From a virus, in IMG/VR virus record IMGVR_UViG_3300043427_000965, positions 1-43,850 of that record: DNA of 43,850 bases; one strand, 5' to 3'. Position 1 is the first letter of the stretch; every line of letters starts with the position of its first letter. Both the position numbers and the translations under genes were made by a program. The notes below the pieces were generated by a model, which made no database searches, was not told where the DNA came from, and saw only the letters and a list, made by a program, of their open reading frames with translations. Positions 3,266 to 14,704 of this stretch are shown piece after piece.

Positions 3266-4036
3266 TTGGCTAGTGGTAGAAAAGCAGCATTAAAGAGCGT
3301 AAATGATGAGACACTTGATAAATTACCAAGAGTTGCAGTGAACAACTCGTTAAAGATAAGGATCGACGATCTAAAAACATTCGAACCACTTACTGAGAAT
3401 CAGAAATTATTTTTTGAAGCTTATAAACGACAAGACTACTTTGTAGCTCTACATGGAGTGGCTGGAACTGGTAAAACATTCTGTGCACTATATAAAGCAC
3501 TAGAAGAAGTACTAGATAAGTCAAATCCCTTCAAGAAAATTATCATAGTTAGATCAGCAGTACAGTCTCGTGAAATCGGGCATCTACCTGGTGATGTGTC
3601 CGAAAAGATGGAGATCTACCAACAACCATATCGTCAGATATGCGAAACCCTCTTCGATAGAAAAGATGCTTGGGATCGCCTAGAAGAACAGGGTTATATT
3701 TCTTTCATATCAACTTCGTTCATTCGTGGAATGTCGTTCGACGACGCGATCATTATCGTAGACGAGATGCAGAACATGACTTTCGAGGAAATAGACACCG
3801 TCATGACTCGTGTTGGTTATCGCTCAAAGATTATTTGGTGTGGTGACTACCGTCAGACAGACCTAAACAAGAAGAAGAACGACGTTAGTGGTATCCTTAA
3901 GTTCTTTGATATCGCGTATCACATGCATGCTTTCACAAAGATTGAATTCACAGTCGACGACATCGTGAGGAGTTCACTGGTTAAGGACTACATCTTAGCT
4001 AAACTAAAGTATGAAGACAATGTTCCAGCATATTAA
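3266..4036 (+). CDS. phoH: PhoH-like P-loop ATPase
   Basis: A 256-residue PhoH-family ATPase. Walker A is GVAGTGKT, followed by the hallmark RSAVQSREIGHLPGD segment. Walker B is IIIVDEMQNM, and a sensor-like GDYRQTD follows. PhoH is a widespread gene of marine phages, and helicase or RNA-related ATPase activity is proposed for the family. The start is taken as TTG at 3266, because GGAGA at 3254-3258 is well spaced and no nearby ATG extends the frame. It overlaps the downstream nuclease by 26 bp. Confidence 0.9.
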   Translation: MASGRKAALKSVNDETLDKLPRVAVNNSLKIRIDDLKTFEPLTENQKLFFEAYKRQDYFVALHGVAGTGKTFCALYKALEEVLDKSNPFKKIIIVRSAVQSREIGHLPGDVSEKMEIYQQPYRQICETLFDRKDAWDRLEEQGYISFISTSFIRGMSFDDAIIIVDEMQNMTFEEIDTVMTRVGYRSKIIWCGDYRQTDLNKKKNDVSGILKFFDIAYHMHAFTKIEFTVDDIVRSSLVKDYILAKLKYEDNVPAY

Positions 4037-4670
4037 CTATGATATTCCAAAACTTGTACGAGTCGATTCGCCTGAAGGTAGAAAATATCAAACACCTTCA
4101 GGTAAGTCGTATCCGTCAGTCACAAGCATTGTCGGACTACTCGGAAAAGAAGCAATTAGAGAATGGCGTTCACGAGTCGGAGAAGAGGAAGCAAATAGAG
4201 TCTCAGCGCGAGCAGCAAGAAGAGGAACTGATGTACACTCGCTCTGCGAAAATTATCTACTCAACAAAGAAGTCAAACCTGGATTATTTGACATAGAGGC
4301 ATTCAATAGCATCAAGCCACTATTGAATCGTATCAATAATATCCACTGTCTAGAGACTCAACTCTTCTCAGACTATCTTCAGGTGGCTGGTACTGTTGAT
4401 TGTATTGCCGAGTTTGATGGACGAGTATCCGTTATAGACTTTAAGACTTCTAGAAGAATAAAGTCACGCGAAGATATTCACGGATACTTCATGCAGACTT
4501 CTGCTTACGCAGTTATGTTTGAAGAACTTACTAAGATTCCAGTAGATCGTCTAGTAATCATTATGTCAGTCGACGACGAAGCACCTTTGCTATTCATCGA
4601 GAAGCGCGACGATTGGATTGGACAATTCATCGAGCTTAGAAAAGACTATTCTAAGTTGCACAATAAGTAA
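4011..4670 (+). CDS. PD-(D/E)XK exonuclease (RecB/MGME1-like)
   Basis: A 219-residue nuclease. The motifs are a helix RGTDVHSLCENYL, an acidic TVDCIAEFDG and the core VIDFKTS (D-x-K), followed by a conserved QTSAYAVMFEEL helix. This is the order seen in RecB-type and MGME1-like single-strand exonucleases, which are common in T4-like marine phages. A second in-frame ATG at 4020 (MFQHINYD) may be the true start, since relatives begin similarly. It overlaps PhoH by up to 26 bp and ends just before the late promoter of the adhesin. Confidence 0.8.
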   Translation: MKTMFQHINYDIPKLVRVDSPEGRKYQTPSGKSYPSVTSIVGLLGKEAIREWRSRVGEEEANRVSARAARRGTDVHSLCENYLLNKEVKPGLFDIEAFNSIKPLLNRINNIHCLETQLFSDYLQVAGTVDCIAEFDGRVSVIDFKTSRRIKSREDIHGYFMQTSAYAVMFEELTKIPVDRLVIIMSVDDEAPLLFIEKRDDWIGQFIELRKDYSKLHNK

Positions 4671-4684
4671 TAATAATCTTTCTT

Positions 4685-4692
4685 TATAAATA
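4685..4692 (+). promoter_or_regulatory. T4-type late promoter (TATAAATA)
   Basis: An exact match to the T4 late -10 consensus recognised by gp55-RNA polymerase. It lies 22 bp before the adhesin ATG, with AAGGAGG as ribosome binding site between. All genes from 4714 to 13748 follow without a visible terminator, so they may be expressed late from here. Confidence 0.75.
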
Positions 4693-4713
4693 TAATAAAA
4701 GGAGGATTTAGAT

Positions 4714-5835
4714 ATGGCAATGGTTTCTAGTGCTTCTGGTGGGCAAATTAGTCTTGCGGGTTCAGCTACTGGACCTGGCTCTACAAATCGTTCGATGAGC
4801 TGGGAATTTAAGGGTACGACAACTTCACAGACCAGTTTAAGTGAGTACTATCGTGGAGGCACATATGTAGCAAATCATCCGTGGAATGCTCCAGTTGCAA
4901 CTACTGGCGCTATAACTATAGGATCTTTCTATGGTGCAAGTAAGAGATATGTAGTTTCAGTATCCATTACTTCTAATACTTCTAATTATAATTTCCAAAC
5001 TAGTTCTGTATCTGGATATACTGCTGGGTGGACTGATGCCACACTAGTAATTAATTCTGGAGTTACTGTTAGTGCTTCTGCTGCGGGTGGAACAGCTCTT
5101 ACAGTTACAGGATTTAATTCTGCTGACACTGTAGCTATTCAAAATAGCGGCATAATACAAGGTGGTGGTGGGACTGGAGGTGCTGCAACTGGATCTGCTG
5201 GAGGGCACGCTATAGATTTAACTCCCGCTTCGAATGCCAATGTGTATGTTAGCAATCTTTCGGGAGCAACTATTGCAGGCGGCGGTGGCGGTGGTGGTAG
5301 AGGTATGGCAGTATATGGGTATTATGTAGATAATTATTTTAATCCTGTTACTCCTGTCACTTACATGAGAGGTGGTGGCGGTGGAGGTGGTGCTGGAAAT
5401 CCAGTAGGAAGCGGAAGCGCGGCAGTTGGATCTGCACAGGGCACTTATTACAACTATCTAATAACTGCAACTGCTGGTGGTGCTGGTTCGTCTAGCGCTG
5501 GTGGTGGTGGTGGTAATGGAGATGGTGGCTATGTTAATGTGCTTAATAATTATTACTTGATGTATGCAGGTGCTGGTGGGCCAGGCGGCGGCCAGGGTGC
5601 TTCAGGTTCTGGTGGTAATCAGGGATATTTAAATGGTCCTCCTGGAGTAGTTTATATTCCTACAACTGGTAGTGCAACAGCCGCATATCCGGGATCTGGA
5701 GTATATGGTGTTATGCAATCTGGTAGCAACTATGGTAGTGGAGGCGCTGCAGGCTATGCAGTTAAAGGAACTAATAAACTAGCAGCAGGTTCTATTAGTA
5801 ACAGTGGGTCAGTGTACGGACCTCAAGGAACATAA
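4714..5835 (+). CDS. Glycine-rich tail-fibre adhesin
   Basis: A 373-residue virion protein. The N-terminal region has repeated SLSEYYRGGTYV and ITIGSFYGAS elements, typical of phage fibre tips. From about residue 150 on there are long glycine tracts (runs of up to 8 Gly) separated by variable Tyr/Asn-rich loops. This layout matches the polyglycine-II sandwich of receptor-binding adhesins such as gp38 of T2/S16-like phages, where the loops contact the receptor. It has a strong RBS and a late promoter directly upstream. Its role in host recognition is inferred from architecture. Confidence 0.75.
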   Translation: MAMVSSASGGQISLAGSATGPGSTNRSMSWEFKGTTTSQTSLSEYYRGGTYVANHPWNAPVATTGAITIGSFYGASKRYVVSVSITSNTSNYNFQTSSVSGYTAGWTDATLVINSGVTVSASAAGGTALTVTGFNSADTVAIQNSGIIQGGGGTGGAATGSAGGHAIDLTPASNANVYVSNLSGATIAGGGGGGGRGMAVYGYYVDNYFNPVTPVTYMRGGGGGGGAGNPVGSGSAAVGSAQGTYYNYLITATAGGAGSSSAGGGGGNGDGGYVNVLNNYYLMYAGAGGPGGGQGASGSGGNQGYLNGPPGVVYIPTTGSATAAYPGSGVYGVMQSGSNYGSGGAAGYAVKGTNKLAAGSISNSGSVYGPQGT

Positions 5836-5836
5836 T

Positions 5837-6433
5837 ATGAGTGAAAATATTGAGAATGAATCTAAATTATTACCACAGAATTGGTTTTGGAATAGCAATA
5901 TTCGTAAATTTGTTCCAGACAATATTTTAGATTGTCTGGAAGAAGAAATACAAAACAAGATACAAAATAATCATTTTATAAAAGGTGGTATCGGCCACAA
6001 ACATGATATTAGAGAAGATTTAGATATTAGAGATACAGATATTATTATGTTTGATTGCATGCATTGGTTTTGCGGAATACTATTTAATATAGGTTTGGCA
6101 TCTAATGCTCAAGCAGAATGGAATTTCGGAGTTCATTCTCCCGAAACTTTGCAAATAGCAATATATAGAGAGAATCAACATTATAAGTGGCATACAGATT
6201 CGGCGTTGTTAACTCGTGATCCTAATGTTCGTAAAATAACAGTCATCTGTATGTTGTCAAATAAAGAAGAGTATACTGGAGGAATTCTAGAATTAGAAGG
6301 AACTGGTGAGATGCAAATGAATAGAGGCGACATTATAGCATTTCCTTCTTTTATACCCCACAGAGTAACGCCAGTAACTAGTGGAATTAGAAAAACCGCA
6401 ACACTTTGGATACTAGGTAACAGGAGTTTTTAA
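5837..6433 (+). CDS. 2-oxoglutarate/Fe(II)-dependent oxygenase (PKHD/prolyl-hydroxylase type)
   Basis: A 198-residue dioxygenase. Metal ligands are H119-x-D121 (KWHTDS) and a distal H175 (FIPHRV), and the 2OG-binding Arg follows in GIRKTATLW. The core also has GGILELEG and GDIIAFPS, as in P4Hc/PKHD hydroxylases. The start is ATG 5837, one base after the adhesin stop; an upstream in-frame ATG lies inside the adhesin gene. Hydroxylation of a virion protein or host factor is possible. The tight link to the adhesin makes a fibre target attractive but unproven. Confidence 0.8.
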   Translation: MSENIENESKLLPQNWFWNSNIRKFVPDNILDCLEEEIQNKIQNNHFIKGGIGHKHDIREDLDIRDTDIIMFDCMHWFCGILFNIGLASNAQAEWNFGVHSPETLQIAIYRENQHYKWHTDSALLTRDPNVRKITVICMLSNKEEYTGGILELEGTGEMQMNRGDIIAFPSFIPHRVTPVTSGIRKTATLWILGNRSF

Positions 6434-6820
6434 ATGATAGACTACACTTTTGAACTTTTAGAAGTTATAGAAGAGCAAAATCAAATGATGGTTAAGTTTT
6501 CTTCTCCAGGCCGGGAAGATATAATTGTCGGAACGCCTCTTCCAACAGAAGGAATCGATTTAAAAGACTTTCTGTACCCTTATGCGCCAATTCCTATTTG
6601 GTTAGAGAAAGAGAGAAAAGTTTTTGTTCCACAAGTTGGACAGACTGGTCAATATTCTGTTGCAGAAGCAGAAGAAAAGATTAAACAAGCTCAAATTGCA
6701 GCTGCTGAAGAATTTGCTAATAGTGCTGAACAACAGTTAATGAAAGAACTTCAGATTCAGTCGACCAAAGATCTAGTTAAAGAAGTTCTGACAGAAGAAG
6801 GTTTGATCACACCTCAATAA
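6434..6820 (+). CDS. Hypothetical protein, possible fibre-associated chaperone
   Basis: A 128-residue acidic protein starting directly after the oxygenase stop. The N-terminal half is beta-rich (FELLEVIEEQNQMMVKF). The middle contains YAPIPIWLEKERKVFVPQ. The C-terminal half is an Ala/Glu/Gln helix, probably coiled (EAEEKIKQAQIAAAEEF). Position after an adhesin and a short helical C-terminus recall tail-fibre assembly chaperones, but no family signature was recognised. Confidence 0.5.
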   Translation: MIDYTFELLEVIEEQNQMMVKFSSPGREDIIVGTPLPTEGIDLKDFLYPYAPIPIWLEKERKVFVPQVGQTGQYSVAEAEEKIKQAQIAAAEEFANSAEQQLMKELQIQSTKDLVKEVLTEEGLITPQ

Positions 6821-6823
6821 GTT

Positions 6824-7825
6824 ATGTATTATTTTGATGATGGTAGTAAATTCTCTTCAAAAATAGAAGCTATTCAATACAGTCTGAAGTCGCAAAAAAA
6901 CTTCAGACTGTATTACTTTGATGAAGTATTTTCTTCTATTGATTGGTCAATAGAACCATCAAACACTCTGCAATATCACTACAAACAACAGGCACAACGT
7001 ATTCGTGATGAATATGATTACGTCGTACTATGCTATAGCGGAGGTGCCGATTCTACAAATATTCTAGAAACTTATGTTTATAATAACATTAAGCTTGACA
7101 AAATAGTTGTTGTTGGTGCATTGAGCGAAGATTCATCTAAAGGCGTTGATGAAAATCACAATGGTGAGTTATACCACAATGTATTTCCTTATCTTAAAGA
7201 TTTAGGATTAGAAGGTATTACACAAATATGTGATTATACTACTTTATTCGACAAACCAGAGAATTTCTCTATATATGAATATGGCGAAAATTGGGTTGAT
7301 GTAGTTGGAACACGATTAAGTCCACACAATTGGTTTTGGCGTGATTTACATAAACATGTAGTTCCTATCGAGTGGCGTAGTAAAAAAGTAGCAATCATTT
7401 TTGGTAAAGACAAACCTAAATTAAGTTATCACGACAATAAATTTGCATTTAGATTTAGTGATATTGTCGTGAATAACTATGGTAATATAGAGACTGTTGA
7501 CAATTGTGATAGAATTAATTTCTATTGGGACCCAAATTATCCGCTTATCATAATCAAACAATTACATATTTTAAAATCACATTTTAATGCATTTAAATTT
7601 GGTGATAGTGTCGATAACATGGTGTATAATTTAAAAAGGCCTTTAGTTTTCAAATCACCTAAAAGTCGATTAAACTATTTAAGTCTAAGAGATAACTTTC
7701 TCGTCAATAAGAAAAATTCTTCAATATATAAATTTTATTTTGATGGTTTACATTATATGAATAAAAAGATTGGCATGAATCACCAAACAATCTACTCAAA
7801 ATTTTACTATATAAATGATAACTAA
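6824..7825 (+). CDS. PP-loop ATP-pyrophosphatase-like protein 1
   Basis: A 333-residue protein with the pyrophosphate-binding loop CYSGGADSTN (SGGADS at 72-77). This marks the N-type ATP-pyrophosphatase fold of QueC, asparagine synthetase B, TilS and similar enzymes, which adenylate a substrate before amidation or sulfur/nitrogen transfer. It shares with proteins 9008 and 11824 an N-terminal WxIEPSxTL signature, (R)xxQxxRxxYDY just before the loop, and a later GKDKPKL motif. It is AT-rich. A perfect 14-bp inverted repeat lies in its first 100 bases. It overlaps the next gene by 11 bp. Substrate unknown. Confidence 0.75.
   Translation: MYYFDDGSKFSSKIEAIQYSLKSQKNFRLYYFDEVFSSIDWSIEPSNTLQYHYKQQAQRIRDEYDYVVLCYSGGADSTNILETYVYNNIKLDKIVVVGALSEDSSKGVDENHNGELYHNVFPYLKDLGLEGITQICDYTTLFDKPENFSIYEYGENWVDVVGTRLSPHNWFWRDLHKHVVPIEWRSKKVAIIFGKDKPKLSYHDNKFAFRFSDIVVNNYGNIETVDNCDRINFYWDPNYPLIIIKQLHILKSHFNAFKFGDSVDNMVYNLKRPLVFKSPKSRLNYLSLRDNFLVNKKNSSIYKFYFDGLHYMNKKIGMNHQTIYSKFYYINDN
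6876..6914 (+). repeat. Perfect 14-bp inverted repeat (hairpin) inside PP-loop gene 1
   Basis: AATACAGTCTGAAG at 6876-6889 is followed by an 11-base loop containing seven A, then its exact reverse complement CTTCAGACTGTATT at 6901-6914. It lies in codons 18-31 of the gene and is read through as coding sequence. No T-run follows on the plus strand, so it is not a standard terminator. Confidence 0.85.
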
Positions 7826-8648
7826 ACATAATTGGTTAAACACAAATATTGGGGAGCGTCTTTTAGATAAATCTGTTGGGTTGAAGTTAAATATCAAACC
7901 ATATAAGTTTAAAAATATATCATTTGACGAAGCAACAGATTTAACATGTTTTCAAATAAACAATATGAATAAGGAAATATACGTAGCGCTCAGTGGAGGA
8001 TATGATTCCGAGTATGTTTTAAGAAGTTTTTGCAAAAATAATGTATGCGTAACACCAATCATAGTTAAGTGTGGTAGAACGGAAGAAACCAAATACGCGT
8101 ATCAAACATGTAATGAACTAAAATTACAACCTATTGTAATTGATATAAATGAAACAGACTTCTTAAATTTTGTAGATAAAAACATCGTTGAAAAATTTGA
8201 TGCAGTTGGGTATAATAGCGCGTATGGAATGATTGCAGCTGAGTATGTTTCCAAAATTCCTAATTCAATTTTAATAAGTGGCGAGCACTTTTTAGGAGAT
8301 GGATTTGATTTAATAACAGATGAAGATTTTTTTATCTCTCACGATTGGGATTTTTATATTGACAATTTTCTAGAAATTCCAGTGAATATAAATTTCTTTA
8401 TGTATAATATAGAAATAGTGTATTCAGTCGTTCCAACTGAAGAGGATAAAGGAATGACTTGGGCAATGTTTAAGTATAAAAAATTTAATTTAAAAATAAG
8501 AGATAAAATGAGATATCACTATACTAGTGAAACGCAAAACAAATTGAATGGTCTATTGAGAAAAAGAAAGCATCCTAATAAAAAATTTGCATTTCGCTTA
8601 ACGAAATCTCAATTTTATGATTGTTTCGAAAAATACAAGGAGATATAA
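7815..8648 (+). CDS. PP-loop ATP-pyrophosphatase-like protein 2 (divergent)
   Basis: A 277-residue protein with YVALSGGYDSEYVL (SGGYDS at 60-65), the PP-loop of the asparagine-synthetase/ExsB-like group. A C-terminal basic stretch (RKRKHPNKK) follows. It lacks the WxIEP N-terminal region and KPKL motif of the other three PP-loop proteins, so it belongs to a different subfamily. The start overlaps the upstream gene by 11 bp, and no clear RBS is seen, suggesting coupled translation. It is very AT-rich. Substrate unknown. Confidence 0.7.
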   Translation: MITKHNWLNTNIGERLLDKSVGLKLNIKPYKFKNISFDEATDLTCFQINNMNKEIYVALSGGYDSEYVLRSFCKNNVCVTPIIVKCGRTEETKYAYQTCNELKLQPIVIDINETDFLNFVDKNIVEKFDAVGYNSAYGMIAAEYVSKIPNSILISGEHFLGDGFDLITDEDFFISHDWDFYIDNFLEIPVNINFFMYNIEIVYSVVPTEEDKGMTWAMFKYKKFNLKIRDKMRYHYTSETQNKLNGLLRKRKHPNKKFAFRLTKSQFYDCFEKYKEI

Positions 8649-9005
8649 ATGGCAAAGTTAATTATGACACATTCTAGAGATGATGTTAGTAAACCTTGGG
8701 TGTATGATTCTCGTGAAAATGCTGTAAGCGGTATGTTTACACCACAAGAAAATATTATTTTAAAATCGACTGTCGTTGGTATAACTTCTCTTCCAGGGTG
8801 GATTAGTACAGAAAATTCTTTTCCAGACAACAATACGCATGTAATAACTCTAAATTTTGATACTTTAGAACATGCTGAAGCTGCTTCTGAATCTTTTCAG
8901 AGTCCTGTTGAAGGTTCTTTATTAGATATAAGAAAAAAATTTTTACTTCAAAAAAGAGAAAGTTTAGGCATAACTTACACGACCACATACTCAGTTACTG
9001 AATAA
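8649..9005 (+). CDS. Hypothetical protein between PP-loop genes
   Basis: A 118-residue protein with a good RBS (AAGGAGAT, 8637-8644) and immediate abutment to the preceding stop. It has a beta-rich start (AKLIMTHSRDDVSKPWVYDS) and a segment HVITLNFDTLEHAEAASESF that looks like a ferredoxin-like or ABM-type strand-helix. No family could be assigned. Its tight position between two PP-loop genes suggests a linked role. Confidence 0.5.
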   Translation: MAKLIMTHSRDDVSKPWVYDSRENAVSGMFTPQENIILKSTVVGITSLPGWISTENSFPDNNTHVITLNFDTLEHAEAASESFQSPVEGSLLDIRKKFLLQKRESLGITYTTTYSVTE

Positions 9006-9007
9006 AC

Positions 9008-10144
9008 ATGTTTTCTGAACTTGGCTATTATATCTGTGATGGTAAAATTTTTGAGACTAAACTCAAAGCAATGATGTACGCTAATGATAAGAAGTTACCG
9101 ATAAAATGGCATTTCAATGATAAAGAATTTGATTCTTATAATTGGGCGATCGAGCCAGAACAAAGTTTAGATTCTTTATATGATGCTAGAGCTCGCCAAA
9201 TTCGTGAACAATTTGATTACGTAATTTTAAGTTATAGCGGCGGCTCAGATACTAATAACATTCTTGAAAGTTTCTTAAGACAAAATCTGTTAATCGATGA
9301 AGTTGTTACTAGTTGGGCACTCGATGTTACTTCTAAATTTATAGTGTGTAATGAAAATGTAAAAGATCCGTGGAATAACAATGCAGAATTTTATTTGCAT
9401 ACTCGGCATCGTTTAGAATATATTAAGCTTAAATCTCCTAGAACAAAAATAACGGTGTTGGATTCATCTAAAAGTATATTAGATGGATTATTAGATAATG
9501 ACAATGCGACATGGGTTGAAACTAAGAATGATGTATTCAACGTAACAGGAGCATTTCAGTACAATCCATTATACTTTTCTAATATTAGAAAATCGTTTGA
9601 TTCGCTCAAAAAAGTTGCATATATTATTGGTGCTGAAAAACCAAAATTGGTTTTAATAGATGATAAACTTTATATGTTTTTTAATGATAAATCTGCTAGC
9701 TTAATACCATTGCGAGAAAATGTTGTAGAATACACCAATATACGTCCTGTTCTTTTTTATTGGTCTCCAGATTCGTGTGCAATGTTAGCTAAACAAGCTC
9801 ACACAGTACTGAAGTATATTAGAACCAATGAGTCTGCTAAACAGATATGGAGATCTAGAGATTTTAGAGTAGCACGAAGAATACAAGAAGAGTTATTGAA
9901 AACAATAATATATACTACATGGAATCCTAATTGGTTCCAAGTTAAAAAATCAATCAGTGATTGGAATTGTGAACTTGATTATTGGTTTACACGTGGATTA
10001 AAACAATCTAAACAATATTCGATTTGGACTGATGGTCTACAAAACTTAATACCCCACATTTCTAATTTTTTAATCTATGAGAATGGAATTGCTAAAGGCA
10101 CTATTGCATATCATAGTAACTATCATTATATAGGATCATTATGA
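9008..10144 (+). CDS. PP-loop ATP-pyrophosphatase-like protein 3
   Basis: A 378-residue paralogue of proteins 6824 and 11824. It has an N-terminal YNWAIEPEQSLDSLY, RARQIREQFDYVILSYSGGSDTNNIL (PP-loop SGGSDT at 77-82), IDEVVTSWALDV, GAEKPKLVLIDDK, FYWSPDSCAMLAKQAH and a C-terminal TTWNPNWFQ...IWTDGLQNLI. All PP-loop residues are present. Relatives with this WxIEP + SGGxDS layout occur in T4-like cyanophages as conserved hypotheticals, as far as I recall. The stop overlaps the start of the first TctC-like gene by ATGA. Confidence 0.75.
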   Translation: MFSELGYYICDGKIFETKLKAMMYANDKKLPIKWHFNDKEFDSYNWAIEPEQSLDSLYDARARQIREQFDYVILSYSGGSDTNNILESFLRQNLLIDEVVTSWALDVTSKFIVCNENVKDPWNNNAEFYLHTRHRLEYIKLKSPRTKITVLDSSKSILDGLLDNDNATWVETKNDVFNVTGAFQYNPLYFSNIRKSFDSLKKVAYIIGAEKPKLVLIDDKLYMFFNDKSASLIPLRENVVEYTNIRPVLFYWSPDSCAMLAKQAHTVLKYIRTNESAKQIWRSRDFRVARRIQEELLKTIIYTTWNPNWFQVKKSISDWNCELDYWFTRGLKQSKQYSIWTDGLQNLIPHISNFLIYENGIAKGTIAYHSNYHYIGSL

Positions 10145-11010
10145 AATATATCATTTCTATCATATTAATGTTTTTTAGTAACGCATACGCATCTCAAGTA
10201 GTTCCTATCGTTTGGCCATTTTCGCCTGGATCTAATCAAGCTAATGCCATTCGAAAAGTAATCGAAAACGCAAATGCTTCACAGAGTAAGTATGTTTTTG
10301 TTTTTGAGAATAAACCTGGAGCAGGTGGATCCATAGCAGTCAATCATGTAATTCAATCTTCTACTCCGGCTTTATTAGCTACTACAACTAGTTTTTTTGT
10401 GCGACCTCGTTATTATCCTAATCAATCACACGACGTAAATGCTATTCAACCAGTTGTTATCATGGCTACAAACGGTCCTCTCGTTCTTATGTCTACTAAA
10501 ATGACTAGTGTGGAAGAGTTGAAGAAAAAGAGTTCGATTAGAATAGGAATAATTCAAGGATCAATTACCGAATCTCTAGCTAGAACTCTACAAAAAAATT
10601 TAAATAATGATGTAGTATTAGTGCCTTATCAGGGAACAATTAATGCCACATCTGATATGATTGGTGGCCATATTGATGCTTCTATTGAATTTATTAAAGA
10701 TGCATTACCCTTTGTTGAAGCAAATAGAGCTAATATAGTTGGTATTACTGGAAATTCTGCTGTTGATAAACATAAAACATTTGAATCACAGGGAATTAAA
10801 GATACAACAGAGATAGTTAATAACTATTATATTGCTGCTAGTGTAAAAATGAGTGAATCTTTAGTTAAAGAACTTTATGAAATATTATCTATTGCAGCAC
10901 AGCAACAAAATGTAGTAGATTTTTGGAAAAGTGATAGCGCTATTTCGACTAAACGCTCTTATAGAGAGACAGTAGAATTTTGGAATAACACTAAAAATTA
11001 TTGGAAGTGA
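10141..11010 (+). CDS. TctC/Bug-type periplasmic solute-binding protein 1
   Basis: A 289-residue exported protein. The signal peptide covers residues 1-17, ending AYA before SQVVPIV. The Bug/TctC hallmarks are WPFSPGS in the ligand loop, the ENKPGAGGSIA segment and VPYQGTINATSDMIGGHIDA. The usual PGGxxDxxAR loop is altered (PGSNQANAIRK), so the ligand may differ from the common carboxylates. The family normally feeds tripartite tricarboxylate transporters, but no tctA or tctB gene is seen here. It overlaps the PP-loop gene upstream by 4 bp. Confidence 0.8.
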   Translation: MKYIISIILMFFSNAYASQVVPIVWPFSPGSNQANAIRKVIENANASQSKYVFVFENKPGAGGSIAVNHVIQSSTPALLATTTSFFVRPRYYPNQSHDVNAIQPVVIMATNGPLVLMSTKMTSVEELKKKSSIRIGIIQGSITESLARTLQKNLNNDVVLVPYQGTINATSDMIGGHIDASIEFIKDALPFVEANRANIVGITGNSAVDKHKTFESQGIKDTTEIVNNYYIAASVKMSESLVKELYEILSIAAQQQNVVDFWKSDSAISTKRSYRETVEFWNNTKNYWK

Positions 11011-11012
11011 TT

Positions 11013-11834
11013 ATGAAAAAATTGATTCTGTCAATAGCTTTAGCTATTGCAACACACTCTGTTTTTGCAAACACTTGCAATATCGTAGTTCCTATTAAAC
11101 CAGGAGGAGCTACTGATATAGTAGCTCGGATTATGCAGAAATATAATCCAAACATTACCATAGACTATAGACCTGGCGTTTACGTCAGTGCTGCGATCAG
11201 TTATGCCGAAAATAATCCTTCAGCTGGGATCATAACATTACCTACGATGTATAGTTCTCAAAATCCAAATAAGAATCCAAATGTAACAGCAATTAAAGTA
11301 TTTGGATCTTATGATCATGGAATTATAACAAATAAAGATATTACTATTAGCGATATTCTTACTAAAAAAATGAATGTAGGAATTTCTTTCTTTGGTAGTC
11401 CTGCTCATGTTATTGGAGAGCAATTAAAGGAAAAAAATCCTAATATCAATTTAGTTTCATTTGGTGGAGATACTAATGCTCTCGCCTCTGTAAAAAATGG
11501 AGATGTAGATGTCTATATTACTGCGTGGCCATCTATAGAATCTTGGACTAATGACTTTAAATTTAAAACTTTGCTAAAGATTACCGCCGGTGCAGGAGTA
11601 ATGATTGAAGATATAAAATTAACCAATATTAGTCTATTCGCTATTTTTATGAGTAACAATTCTACTAGAGAACAAAGATCTCATATGCTCAATTGTGTTA
11701 ATGCTGCGCTCAATAATGAAGGACTGAAAAATGACTTTAAGAAAATATACATGAATATTTTAAATGAAGATGAAGAAAAAGCAACTAAATCTATTCAAAA
11801 TTATATCAATACTTTAATTCGCTATGGTATTTGA
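11013..11834 (+). CDS. TctC/Bug-type periplasmic solute-binding protein 2
   Basis: A 273-residue exported protein with a signal peptide at residues 1-19 (ending VFA). The canonical ligand loop VPIKPGGATDIVARIM is present, and a DYRPG segment stands where NKPG is usual. A second lobe contains VSFGGDTNALASVKNGDVDVYI, matching the conserved YKGxxxAxxDLLxGxVD region. The ATG at 11013 is preferred to an upstream TTG at 11001 because the signal peptide starts there. It overlaps PP-loop gene 4 by 11 bp. It is somewhat shorter than typical family members (about 300). Confidence 0.75.
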   Translation: MKKLILSIALAIATHSVFANTCNIVVPIKPGGATDIVARIMQKYNPNITIDYRPGVYVSAAISYAENNPSAGIITLPTMYSSQNPNKNPNVTAIKVFGSYDHGIITNKDITISDILTKKMNVGISFFGSPAHVIGEQLKEKNPNINLVSFGGDTNALASVKNGDVDVYITAWPSIESWTNDFKFKTLLKITAGAGVMIEDIKLTNISLFAIFMSNNSTREQRSHMLNCVNAALNNEGLKNDFKKIYMNILNEDEEKATKSIQNYINTLIRYGI

Positions 11835-13026
11835 AGACCGCGCGCTAGCAGAAAAATTTTCTGCTATAACTGAAAGAGGATATTGGTCTGTAGCCAACAA
11901 ATTTTTCTTTAATAAAGCTGAATGTCTAAAATACGCAAGTTCTATAAAGAACTATAAAGTAAGTTATACATTCATGGATTTTGCTTATAGAACGTTGAAT
12001 TGGAATATAGAACCATCGGAAACATTAGAAGAACTCTATAAACTTCGAGCTCAACAACTTAGATCAACATACGACTATTTGATTTTATTTTATAGTGGTG
12101 GTGCTGACAGTACTAATATATTAAACACTTATATGGATAATGGTATACATTTAGATGAGGTAGTTACATGTTATCCTATAAGTGTAATTGAAAAAACGAT
12201 TAGTTCATTTACACCAACTGACACTGATAAAAAGAATGTGATGTTTGAATATACACTAGCTGCCCAGCCAAAGTTGAAAGAATTAAGCACTAGATACCCA
12301 AATACTAAAATAACAGTGCTTGATTATTCTACTCTGGCATTAGATATGATTATTACTGATAATCTTAACAAAGTTTTTCAGGCAGGACTTGCAGCAGATC
12401 CATATCATATTAGTCATTATTACGTTGGTCGCGAAATGAGAAAAATATCTGAAACGCGGAGTGTCTGCGCTATTGCTGGGATAGATAAACCTCGATTAAT
12501 GTACGACATGATTAATAAAAAATTTGGTTGTACTTTTCATGATTTAAATACTATATTTGGTAATTTTTCAAATGAATCATTTAATGGTTATATACCTAAA
12601 ATTGAATATTTTTATTATACGAGTTCTCTTCCAACACTTATGCAGAAACAGTGTTTTATTTTAAAAAATGCTTTTATTAATATGGGAATGACCAATCCCG
12701 TTACTGCTAAAAATTTTCTAATTAAAATTAAAGACAGCAAATATCTCATATATAATTCACATACCTCTTTATTTAGAACTATATTGTACCCAACGTGGAA
12801 CGATTCAACTTGGCAAGCTGATAAAGATACTACAAATTTTTTCTATCAAAGCAATTCTAATTGGTATCATACTGACAAATTTACCGATAAAAGACAAAGA
12901 GATTATTATTCCGGTCAAGTGAGTGAGTTAGTTAATGGAATCTCTGAAGTCTTTATTGAGAGAGATAAAGTTACTAATAGAATTAATAAATTAACTGATT
13001 TTATTACTGCGCCAATATGGTTTTAA
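11824..13026 (+). CDS. PP-loop ATP-pyrophosphatase-like protein 4
   Basis: A 400-residue paralogue of proteins 6824 and 9008. It has LNWNIEPSETLEELY, RAQQLRSTYDYLILFYSGGADSTNIL (SGGADS at 91-96), LDEVVTCYPIS, GIDKPRLMYD and a C-terminal YPTWNDSTWQ region. It has about 20 extra N-terminal residues relative to the other two. It overlaps the TctC-like gene before it by 11 bp and the one after it by 10 bp, so PP-loop and TctC proteins are interleaved in one translational chain. Confidence 0.75.
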   Translation: MVFEDRALAEKFSAITERGYWSVANKFFFNKAECLKYASSIKNYKVSYTFMDFAYRTLNWNIEPSETLEELYKLRAQQLRSTYDYLILFYSGGADSTNILNTYMDNGIHLDEVVTCYPISVIEKTISSFTPTDTDKKNVMFEYTLAAQPKLKELSTRYPNTKITVLDYSTLALDMIITDNLNKVFQAGLAADPYHISHYYVGREMRKISETRSVCAIAGIDKPRLMYDMINKKFGCTFHDLNTIFGNFSNESFNGYIPKIEYFYYTSSLPTLMQKQCFILKNAFINMGMTNPVTAKNFLIKIKDSKYLIYNSHTSLFRTILYPTWNDSTWQADKDTTNFFYQSNSNWYHTDKFTDKRQRDYYSGQVSELVNGISEVFIERDKVTNRINKLTDFITAPIWF

Positions 13027-13748
13027 AATTTATACTAGTACTAGCAATATCGTTGAACATAGCATACGCAAATACTATAGAATTCATAGTGTCTGCTTCT
13101 GCGGGAGGTCCTAATGATACTGTGACTAGAGCAATAAGCGCAGAGTTAGAAAAGAATAACTTGAAAATAATAGTGTTAAATAAACCAGGTGCTGCGCACA
13201 CTATAGCATATCAATACGCTTATGACAGTGATAAACCGACATTAATAATGTCTACTTCAGAAATTACACATCATAAAGTTCATGGACAATTAGATGAAAT
13301 ATTTAATGCTGGATATTTTAGAAATGTGTTATATGTTTCATCTAAATCTAATATTAATCATATCAATGATTTAATTTCTATTTCTAAGAATAGACAAATT
13401 AAATTTGGTTATGGAGGAGTTGGATCTTATAGTCATATGGCAATGAAAACAATATGTGAGCATAAGTTAAACTCGAATTGTTTAGAAGTCGCTTATAAAG
13501 GTGGGTCTGTTGGGATGTTAGATGTTATGCGTGGCGAAATAGATGCATATGCTCTTGTATCATATGGCTCATCTCAGTTTTCCAACAACGATAAACTTAA
13601 AGCGATATACGATATTGACATTGGAAAAGAAAAGAGCTGGTTTAAACTGTTTTCTAAAAATATCTCTTTAAAAGATAGACAAATCATATTAGATACTTTG
13701 AATTCTTTAGATAATAAGTTCTATCAAGATATGGGATTCAAAAAATAA
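13017..13748 (+). CDS. TctC/Bug-type periplasmic solute-binding protein 3 (short)
   Basis: A 243-residue exported protein, the shortest of the three. The signal peptide is residues 1-18 (ending AYA). The ligand loop reads VSASAGGPNDTVTRAI (Asp and Arg kept), followed by LNKPGAAHTIAYQYA and AYKGGSVGMLDVMRGEIDAYA, all diagnostic of TctC/Bug proteins. The C-terminal lobe seems trimmed relative to the family. It is the last gene of the accessory cassette; the tmRNA promoter begins two bases after its stop. Confidence 0.75.
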   Translation: MVLKFILVLAISLNIAYANTIEFIVSASAGGPNDTVTRAISAELEKNNLKIIVLNKPGAAHTIAYQYAYDSDKPTLIMSTSEITHHKVHGQLDEIFNAGYFRNVLYVSSKSNINHINDLISISKNRQIKFGYGGVGSYSHMAMKTICEHKLNSNCLEVAYKGGSVGMLDVMRGEIDAYALVSYGSSQFSNNDKLKAIYDIDIGKEKSWFKLFSKNISLKDRQIILDTLNSLDNKFYQDMGFKK

Positions 13749-13750
13749 AT

Positions 13751-13779
13751 TTTACTTTAAATCTGGAATAATATATAAT
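13751..13779 (+). promoter_or_regulatory. Promoter of the permuted tmRNA gene
   Basis: TTTACT (13751-13756), 17-bp spacer, TATAAT (13774-13779). Predicted +1 is about 13786, just before the acceptor piece. The spacer has AATCT where most other promoters of this window have ATTCT. Confidence 0.7.
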
Positions 13780-13785
13780 ACTATA

Positions 13786-14158
13786 TGATCGTATGAAGTT
13801 GACCGAAAGGTGTTTCGGACGGCGGTTCGATTCCGCCCAGGTCCACCAGAAAACTCTTTGAGTAGCTACACTAGATAAACAGAAAAACTTGCTAAAGTCG
13901 ACCAAAGCAAGGACTTGCTAGGAAGAAGGGCTACCATGATTTCAAGTATCGCAGAGAGTTTTCTAATGGGCCTGACCTGGTTTCGACGGGGCAAGTATTA
14001 GGGATACAGACGATTCGGCAATGTGAAAGTCGTAGGGTTGAGGCAACTCGGCCGAAGAAACAAAAACGTAAACGCAAACGACGAACAGTTCGCATTGGCT
14101 GCCTAAACTCGGCCTAGGGTTTCGGTGGGTTTCCTCGTAACAGAATAACCCATCACTA
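13786..14158 (+). ncRNA. ssrA: Circularly permuted (two-piece) tmRNA gene
   Basis: The 3' part comes first. The acceptor piece (about 13786-13848) has a T-arm GGCGG-TTCGATT-CCGCC, the acceptor strand CAGGTCC and an encoded ACCA. An intervening segment (13849-13967) follows, whose ends pair (GAAAACTCT with AGAGTTTTC). The coding piece starts at 13968 with GGGCCTGACCTGGTTTCGACGG. GGGCCUG pairs with CAGGUCC and gives a G-U at the third pair, the alanine identity element. GTAAAC precedes the resume codon at 14074. Both outer ends are estimated. The gene fills the only gap above 300 bases; I see no protein gene in it. Confidence 0.9.
14074..14106 (+). other. tmRNA tag reading frame (ANDEQFALAA)
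   Basis: The reading frame runs GCA AAC GAC GAA CAG TTC, then GCA TTG GCT GCC TAA, encoding a 10-residue proteolysis tag ending ALAA. The alanine-ending tail is that expected for ClpXP/ClpAP recognition. The AND-E start and ALAA end resemble betaproteobacterial tags as I remember them. Confidence 0.85.
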
Positions 14159-14173
14159 AAAAGGAGATCACTG

Positions 14174-14704
14174 ATGCATCTTATGAAACTTGTTTTCATA
14201 AGCATTCTTGGCTACTTTTTCGTGCAGCACTTTCACCTATTAGTTGATCAAAAGTTTGAAGAGGTTAAGGAGAGTAAGCATCCGCCATATGTTACATTGG
14301 CACAGCGCGAAAGAGAGTTAGACTGTTTAACGAAAAATATATACTATGAAGCAGGGATAGAACCGTTTGAAGGAAAAGTAGCAGTAGCTCAAGTGACAAT
14401 CAACAGGACTAAATCTGGAAAATTTCCAACAGACATATGTGCAGTTGTATACGAACGAAATTTAGTGTATAATAATTTCATATGTCAGTTCAGTTGGTAT
14501 TGTGAAAGTAAAACAAAGGTAAGGCCTATTCATGTTGCAACATATAAAGAATCCGAGGCTGTGGCTAAAAAAGTACTTCTCGAAGGATTCAGACTCGACA
14601 TCATTAAAGAGGACACACTATACTATCATGCAGACTACGTCAACCCCCGATGGAAAAAACAACGAGTCGCCAAAATTGGAAAACACATCTTCTACAAAGA
14701 CTGA
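14174..14704 (+). CDS. SleB-type cell-wall hydrolase (endolysin candidate)
   Basis: A 176-residue protein. Residues 5-24 form one hydrophobic segment (signal anchor), then a charged linker leads to the Hydrolase_2/SleB domain: LTKNIYYEAGIEPFEGKVAVAQVTINR with catalytic-type Glu59, followed by FPTDICAVVYE and an FSWYCE segment. SleB-like enzymes cleave peptidoglycan glycan strands. The N-terminal anchor suggests export by Sec, like SAR endolysins. AAGGAG at 14161-14166 gives a strong RBS for ATG 14174. The downstream membrane gene overlaps its 3' end, as in a lysis cassette. Confidence 0.75.
   Translation: MHLMKLVFISILGYFFVQHFHLLVDQKFEEVKESKHPPYVTLAQRERELDCLTKNIYYEAGIEPFEGKVAVAQVTINRTKSGKFPTDICAVVYERNLVYNNFICQFSWYCESKTKVRPIHVATYKESEAVAKKVLLEGFRLDIIKEDTLYYHADYVNPRWKKQRVAKIGKHIFYKD

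Follow-up and report, generated by a model that had tools for sequence, protein, structure and literature searches.

Why would a bacteriophage interleave genes for putative ATP-using enzymes of the cytoplasm with genes for exported solute-binding proteins? This question is raised by the IMG/VR virus record IMGVR_UViG_3300043427_000965, of which a stretch of 43,850 nucleotides (positions 1 to 43,850, hereafter the window) was analysed. Baseplate, gp32-like, PhoH and exonuclease genes across the rest of the window show the source phage to be a T4-like myovirus, and at positions 6824-13748 it carries a cassette of eight tightly packed genes, all on the plus strand, which encode four proteins with a PP-loop motif (PP1 to PP4), one small protein and three binding proteins of the TctC/Bug type (T1 to T3).

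The same two gene families were found to be coupled, in both search directions, in many other phages, in one of which they share a gene run with what appears from sequence to be a complete tripartite tricarboxylate transporter (TTT). In our judgement there is about an even chance that the cassette is a set of phage modules which capture a carboxylate and activate it.

Organization of the cassette and its recurrence in other phages

The original prediction for this stretch, made from the letters alone, described the eight genes as packed with overlaps, or with gaps of three bases or less, and all of the open reading frames (ORFs) are indeed present, with overlaps of 4-11 bp (PP1/PP2, 7825/7815, 11 bp; PP3/T1, 10144/10141, 4 bp; T2/PP4, 11834/11824, 11 bp; PP4/T3, 13026/13017, 10 bp) and gaps of 0-2 bp (PP2 and the gene of a 118-amino-acid (aa) protein, 8648/8649, 0 bp; the latter and PP3, 9005/9008, 2 bp; T1 and T2, 11010/11013, 2 bp). 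The first start codon of the T2 ORF is a TTG at 11001, the ATG at 11013 being internal to the same ORF. The cassette has a G+C content of 31% compared with about 42% upstream, and a scan for promoters and terminators gave matches at chance level only. Most of the cassette is syntenic with a locus of another phage (L145), in which a Rieske-like gene is inserted and one TctC gene is inverted.

Recurrence was assessed in 59 non-redundant loci with PP genes, many of which are contig fragments, so that the absence of TctC or TctA from a record is weak evidence. A member of the TctC-like cluster is present in 34 of the 59 loci, and 38 of 46 TctC genes lie no more than 51 bp from a PP gene, against 11.3 expected from shuffles of gene order (maximum 20 in 1000 shuffles); chance adjacency was rejected. 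The reverse search, starting from phage TctC, recovered a PP gene in 57 of 74 loci, namely in 20/20 loci with type B TctC (18 adjacent) and 37/54 with type A (23 adjacent), counts that lean towards PP genes because the TctC subfamilies were seeded from PP-linked members. When whole records were searched with Pfam TctC as a less biased check, extra copies abutting a PP gene were found in three of them (G032, G012 and G021), other copies adjoining sulfotransferase-like or oxygenase-like genes. Altogether, a PP gene directly flanks 61 of the 108 distinct phage TctC genes. PP-loop and TctC genes are thus often together, the opposite of the rarity that the original prediction had named as speaking against it.

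The pairs occur in four orientations (21 with TctC before PP, 16 with PP before TctC, 15 convergent and 2 divergent), so the neighbourhood must have been rebuilt repeatedly, and alternating blocks like those of the window are seen in L083, L018, L026 and L040. These orientations, together with the occurrence of pairs at separate sites within one genome, led us to reject descent from a single lineage as the explanation, while contamination with host DNA was rejected on account of the T4-like flanks and the phage genes found along a further record (G020, below). In 55 of the 59 loci the A+T content of the PP and TctC genes exceeds that of the remaining genes of the locus, with a mean difference of 2.9 points (Wilcoxon 3e-10).

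Transporter and adenylating enzyme genes beside TctC

The absence of tctAB genes noted in the original prediction holds for the window, in which tctA was searched for and not found and no tctB was seen, the latter by ORF reading only, but it does not extend to all relatives. In G020 (L086, G020:20001-40000) one gene run holds TctC, PP, a 2-oxoglutarate (2OG)-like gene, TctB (2.8e-10) and TctA (2.4e-156), its TctC (31% identity over the full length) and PP (41%) being the counterparts of T2 and PP4. This contig, which also carries a second TctC-TctA pair, encodes a ribonucleotide reductase, an exonuclease, a virion protein and a 633-aa protein of a phage family (1.6e-279), and a phage thus appears, from gene content, to possess the genes of a complete TTT. 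In another record (G031) a TctA-TctC pair lies about 2 kb from a PP gene. Since TctA or TctB genes accompany TctC and PP in both, TctC very probably belongs to transport at least in these two phages.

Enzymes of the AMP-binding (ANL) superfamily, which are not homologous to PP-loop proteins, activate carboxylates by adenylation. Such an enzyme abuts TctC in three loci that hold no PP gene (L156, +1; L185, -1; L175, +3 bp), an arrangement that is supportive, though not decisive because the phages are possibly related (they have in common a downstream polymerase-like gene, as judged by eye).

The PP-loop protein family

That the cassette encodes four PP-loop proteins was borne out, the motif being intact in PP1 (YSGGADS), PP2 (LSGGYDS), PP3 (YSGGSDT) and PP4 (YSGGADS). 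PP1, PP3 and PP4 are mutual paralogues with 29-31% identity (30% between PP1 and PP3), while PP2, which falls in a smaller sister group sharing the motif, has a weak QueC-like PHROG match (phrog_1550, 0.0034); otherwise PHROG sequence searches of the PP proteins gave nothing firm. Residues S77, G79 and D81 are invariant across 48 PP sequences, and the high-confidence AlphaFold model of PP3 places the SGGxDS/T motif in the loop between a core strand (71-75) and a helix (80-91). Foldseek returned GMP synthetase (2.2e-4) and carbapenam synthetase (2.4e-4), with beta-lactam synthetase, LarE and AsnB also among the nearest folds. By its size (378 aa) and model, PP3 has no N-terminal glutaminase-type domain (TM scores of 0.25-0.37 to asparagine and beta-lactam synthetases), and in a comparison of viral models the PP relatives were unnamed proteins and, more remotely, 'asparagine synthase'.

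The family has 417 relatives in viral contigs, although a viral scan with the single PP4 sequence gave no match. Scanning 84,980 bacterial and archaeal genomes twice confirmed no relative, although these scans rely on conserved peptide patterns that divergent cellular relatives could escape, and tblastn found none in either 50,697 phage records or 72,556 plasmids. As far as these searches reach, the family seems to be virus-only.

The TctC proteins

The assignment of three TctC/Bug proteins stood for T1 and T3, which match PF03401 above the cut-off, and for T2 it holds by its own profile and by its homologue in G020 rather than by Pfam. The T1 model (pLDDT 95) has the fold of the receptors TphC, Bug27, BugD and MatC (TM 0.75-0.84; 7nds, 8hkb, 2qpq, 2f5x and 6hke), with TphC, the terephthalate-binding protein of Ideonella, among its best PDB matches; the folds anticipated by the original prediction were in this way recovered for T1, whereas PP3 matches ATP pyrophosphatases only weakly. 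T3 is 73%, 44% and 35% identical to its counterparts in L052, L023 and L069, which are also short (241-273 aa). The loops of T3 (AGGPND) and T2 (PGGATD) fit the beta1-alpha1 ligand-loop motif of BugD, A15-G16-G17..D20 (PMC5812351).

A Pfam TctC match was obtained for 37 of the 39 phage TctC proteins scanned, and the N-terminus is strongly hydrophobic in 94% of 188, as determined by hydropathy in place of signal-peptide prediction. Two phage TctC proteins that were compared with plasmid-borne bacterial TctC had at most about 33% identity to them.

Features of the window and neighbouring genes

The cassette (Table 1) is flanked on one side by a glycine-rich fibre-like protein and a 2OG oxygenase, whose homologue in L145 occupies the equivalent place (50% identity), and on the other by a transfer-messenger RNA (tmRNA), which ARAGORN places at 13756-14197 with the tag ANDEQFALAA. 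No Pfam match was found for the product of 6434..6820 and no significant one for the 118-aa protein. Both the type of the tmRNA and the nearest TctC proteins on plasmids (Cupriavidus, Variovorax, Hydrogenophaga and Acidovorax) point to a host that is probably a betaproteobacterium, though a methylophage with a tmRNA of alphaproteobacterial type shows that this character can mislead (PMC9004378).

Table 1. Coordinates of the cassette genes and of the features at its edges.
Feature	Coordinates	Strand	Evidence
2OG-Fe(II) oxygenase, directly upstream of cassette	5804..6433	+	PF13640 8.7e-16; phrog_61 3.6e-26
Small protein, upstream cassette edge	6434..6820	+	63% identity over 75 aa to syntenic L145 gene
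PP1, PP-loop-motif protein	6824..7825	+	SGGADS; 48-54% to homologues in L009, L145, L023, L069
PP2, smaller PP-loop-motif protein	7815..8648	+	LSGGYDS; 42% to L145 homologue
Small 118-aa protein	8649..9005	+	45-46% identity to L145 homologue in equivalent place
PP3, PP-loop-motif protein, founder of searched family	9008..10144	+	AlphaFold pLDDT 94; Foldseek matches
T1, TctC-type binding protein, type A, altered ligand loop	10141..11010	+	PF03401 1e-11; predicted export
T2, TctC-like binding protein	11013..11834	+	Own profile 1.2e-55 (11001-start ORF); predicted export
PP4, PP-loop-motif protein paired with T2	11824..13026	+	41% identity, 1e-110 to PP of G020
T3, TctC-type binding protein, short form	13017..13748	+	PF03401 1.7e-9; predicted export
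Permuted (two-piece) tmRNA, betaproteobacterial type, downstream cassette edge	13736..14170	+	RF04321 2.4e-24; RF01850 beta_tmRNA 1.2e-35

Among the related loci, recurrent neighbours include nitronate monooxygenase-like, Rieske, fatty acid desaturase, fatty acid hydroxylase and ATP-grasp genes (sites at L114 6855-7766, L080 6220-7053, L106 1672-2469, L009 4983-5426 and L034 9149-10297). Binding proteins of the DctP (TRAP) type without a signal peptide were also recorded, 51 of them in 37 loci, with a hydrophobic N-terminus in only 5% and with a Pfam DctP match of 2.9e-43 for one of them; the order PP-DctP-TctC recurs in L054, L154, L163, L167, L171, L172 and L180 (L163 and L180 being the same phage). 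The cytoplasmic location that these sequences suggest would be unexpected for a TRAP receptor. Inspection of L006 by eye revealed a tryptophan-halogenase-like protein, a porin of betaproteobacterial type and sugar-nucleotide/glycosyl genes near a PP gene and two TctC genes (sites 3796-5454 and 6136-7074), and a 285-kb phage contig (L004) has 29 tRNA genes within 21 kb around its PP and TctC genes.

What the cassette may do

Of the two functions offered in the original prediction, capture and activation of a carboxylate by a metabolic module is the better supported, by the two-way pairing, by TctB and TctA in G020 and by the ANL enzymes of three loci. The proposed mechanism is as follows. During infection the exported TctC proteins would reach the periplasm of the host, bind small carboxylates there and deliver them to the TctAB of the host or, rarely, of the phage, most such phages lacking a TctA gene. 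The PP-loop enzymes would act in the cytoplasm, spending ATP on adenylation of the imported acid or one of its products and so allowing an amide, nitrile, thio or similar bond to be formed, a step that neighbouring oxygenases and further tailoring enzymes may follow up; the paralogous TctC-PP pairs would be parallel modules of differing specificity, presumably to the benefit of the phage. This reading draws on the transporter run of G020, the ANL enzymes beside TctC, the nearest folds of the PP model and the literature on TTT receptors, whose ligands are mostly carboxylates and which in betaproteobacteria share few TctAB among many orphan TctC (PMC5812351, PMC5994714).

A number of observations weigh against it. 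The fetched flanks of 25 of the 59 PP loci contain no TctC, and TctA was not found in 31 of 33 records, many of which are fragments. The distances of paired TctC and PP proteins are correlated overall (r 0.45), with r falling to about 0 once the PP proteins compared are over 55% different; without deep co-divergence the pairs are not fixed one-to-one partners, strict coevolution of this kind is not supported at depth, and the pairs reassort. The Pfam TctC match of T2 is weak (0.078, below the cut-off), and T1 (PGSNQA) and its type A subfamily do not have the usual GG..D ligand loop, so that their ligand may be unusual. The likeness of PP3 to known ATP pyrophosphatase folds is weak (TM 0.2-0.37), no Pfam family (apart from one stray match among 48 sequences) and no PDB sequence match below 0.04 was found for the PP proteins, and the PP-loop superfamily also holds enzymes whose substrates are not free carboxylates.

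Other explanations must be set against the same evidence. PP enzymes could, together with oxygenases, radical SAM, desaturase, nitronate monooxygenase and Rieske proteins, build and tailor a metabolite in a natural-product-like pathway of the phage, the TctC proteins binding, recapturing or sensing the product outside. The neighbours in the loci (nitronate monooxygenase, Rieske, PhyH, fatty acid desaturase and hydroxylase, radical SAM, ATP-grasp and AMP-binding enzymes), the halogenase-like protein of L006 and the presence of beta-lactam and carbapenam synthetases among the nearest PP folds would suit such a pathway, which we nevertheless regard as rather unlikely: the neighbour sets vary widely from one phage to the next and include no recognised carrier protein, exporter or core synthase, and the G020 operon holds an importer. 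The TctA and TctB genes that accompany the homologous pair in G020 also argue against TctC acting as a periplasmic sensor or signalling receptor for phage or host instead of in transport, with the PP enzymes directed at an unrelated target. Next to the TctC genes neither a sensor kinase nor a regulator could be recognised, and this role is given a low probability even though a signalling function has been suggested for orphan TctC families that have expanded (PMC5812351, PMC5994714).

Just as improbable is the modification of tRNA or DNA by PP-loop enzymes resembling TilS, MnmA or QueC, with the TctC genes as hitchhikers in a variable region, since hitchhiking does not predict adjacency far above that of shuffled gene order, seen from either starting family and again at separate sites of a single genome; the precedent of the PP-loop superfamily, the weak QueC-like PHROG matches, the tRNA-rich neighbourhoods of L004 and L005 and the AT-rich variable region are what speak for it. 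As for the second function offered in the original prediction, superinfection exclusion or alteration of the host surface by the exported proteins, no positive evidence emerged and we consider it very unlikely. Export of the TctC proteins is very probable and receptor-blocking proteins of phages are known in general, but exclusion would not explain why the genes are so closely coupled to that of an ATP enzyme of the cytoplasm, the T1 model has the fold of a complete soluble Bug receptor and TctA and TctB stand beside the homologous pair of the relative G020. NAD synthetase is a PP-loop enzyme. NAD metabolism was considered as well, and nothing points to it specifically; Bug27/69 bind quinolinate (PMC11452294).

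The capture-and-activate reading can be taken further, although only tentatively, to a virus-exclusive family of ATP-using, carboxylate-activating enzymes which evolved with phage periplasmic receptors, giving phages import-and-modify pathways of their own, with several modules per genome, in some of which a leaderless cytoplasmic TRAP-type protein may pass the ligand from carrier to enzyme. If capture and activation are indeed the role of these modules, infection brings new import and chemistry into the cell and would alter what cells take up from dissolved organic acids. In defined pairs such as T2-PP4 the ligand of the receptor should reveal the substrate of the enzyme, which provides a concrete functional lead for a large unnamed family of phage proteins.

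Comparison with known systems

A search of the open-access literature found no description of phage TctC paired with PP-loop enzymes, in agreement with the original prediction, the nearest case being tctA on a SUP05 viral contig, a transporter domain hit; neither the PP enzyme family nor its pairing with TctC appears to have been described before. The PP proteins share with the N-type ATP pyrophosphatases (AsnB, beta-lactam and carbapenam synthetases, GMP synthetase, QueC and LarE) the SGGxDS PP-loop after a core strand and, with several of them, a weak Foldseek similarity, but they differ in having no glutaminase domain and in having extra N- and C-terminal regions. Their fold family is that of uncultured Caudovirales proteins such as A0A6J5TD96 and A0A6J5LU00 (TM 0.73-0.88, E values down to 1.2e-28), which are unnamed and have no function or TctC link recorded.

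The phage TctC proteins resemble the TctCBA receptors and orphan Bug proteins of betaproteobacteria in fold, Pfam family and probable signal peptides and in usually having no TctAB alongside, and they resemble the orphan receptors beside carboxylate enzymes in sitting next to an enzyme gene; where an orphan TctC accompanies an arylmalonate decarboxylase, it is believed to bring in the substrate of the enzyme (PMC5812351). They differ from their bacterial counterparts in being phage-encoded, in their coupling to a seemingly virus-only enzyme family and in the changed ligand loop of type A. With cyanophage PstS, a phosphate receptor that serves as an auxiliary metabolic gene and may keep uptake by the host going (PMC10976474), they have in common that they are phage-encoded binding proteins predicted to be exported, although the receptor family and the probable ligand are different and no coupling of PstS to an enzyme that uses ATP is known. 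Phages had been known to carry lone receptors, PstS among them; here a receptor family is joined gene to gene with an enzyme family in many large uncultivated phages. By analogy, these modules would work in the manner of the bacterial orphan TctC with its enzyme and of phage PstS, with an enzyme family apparently restricted to viruses.

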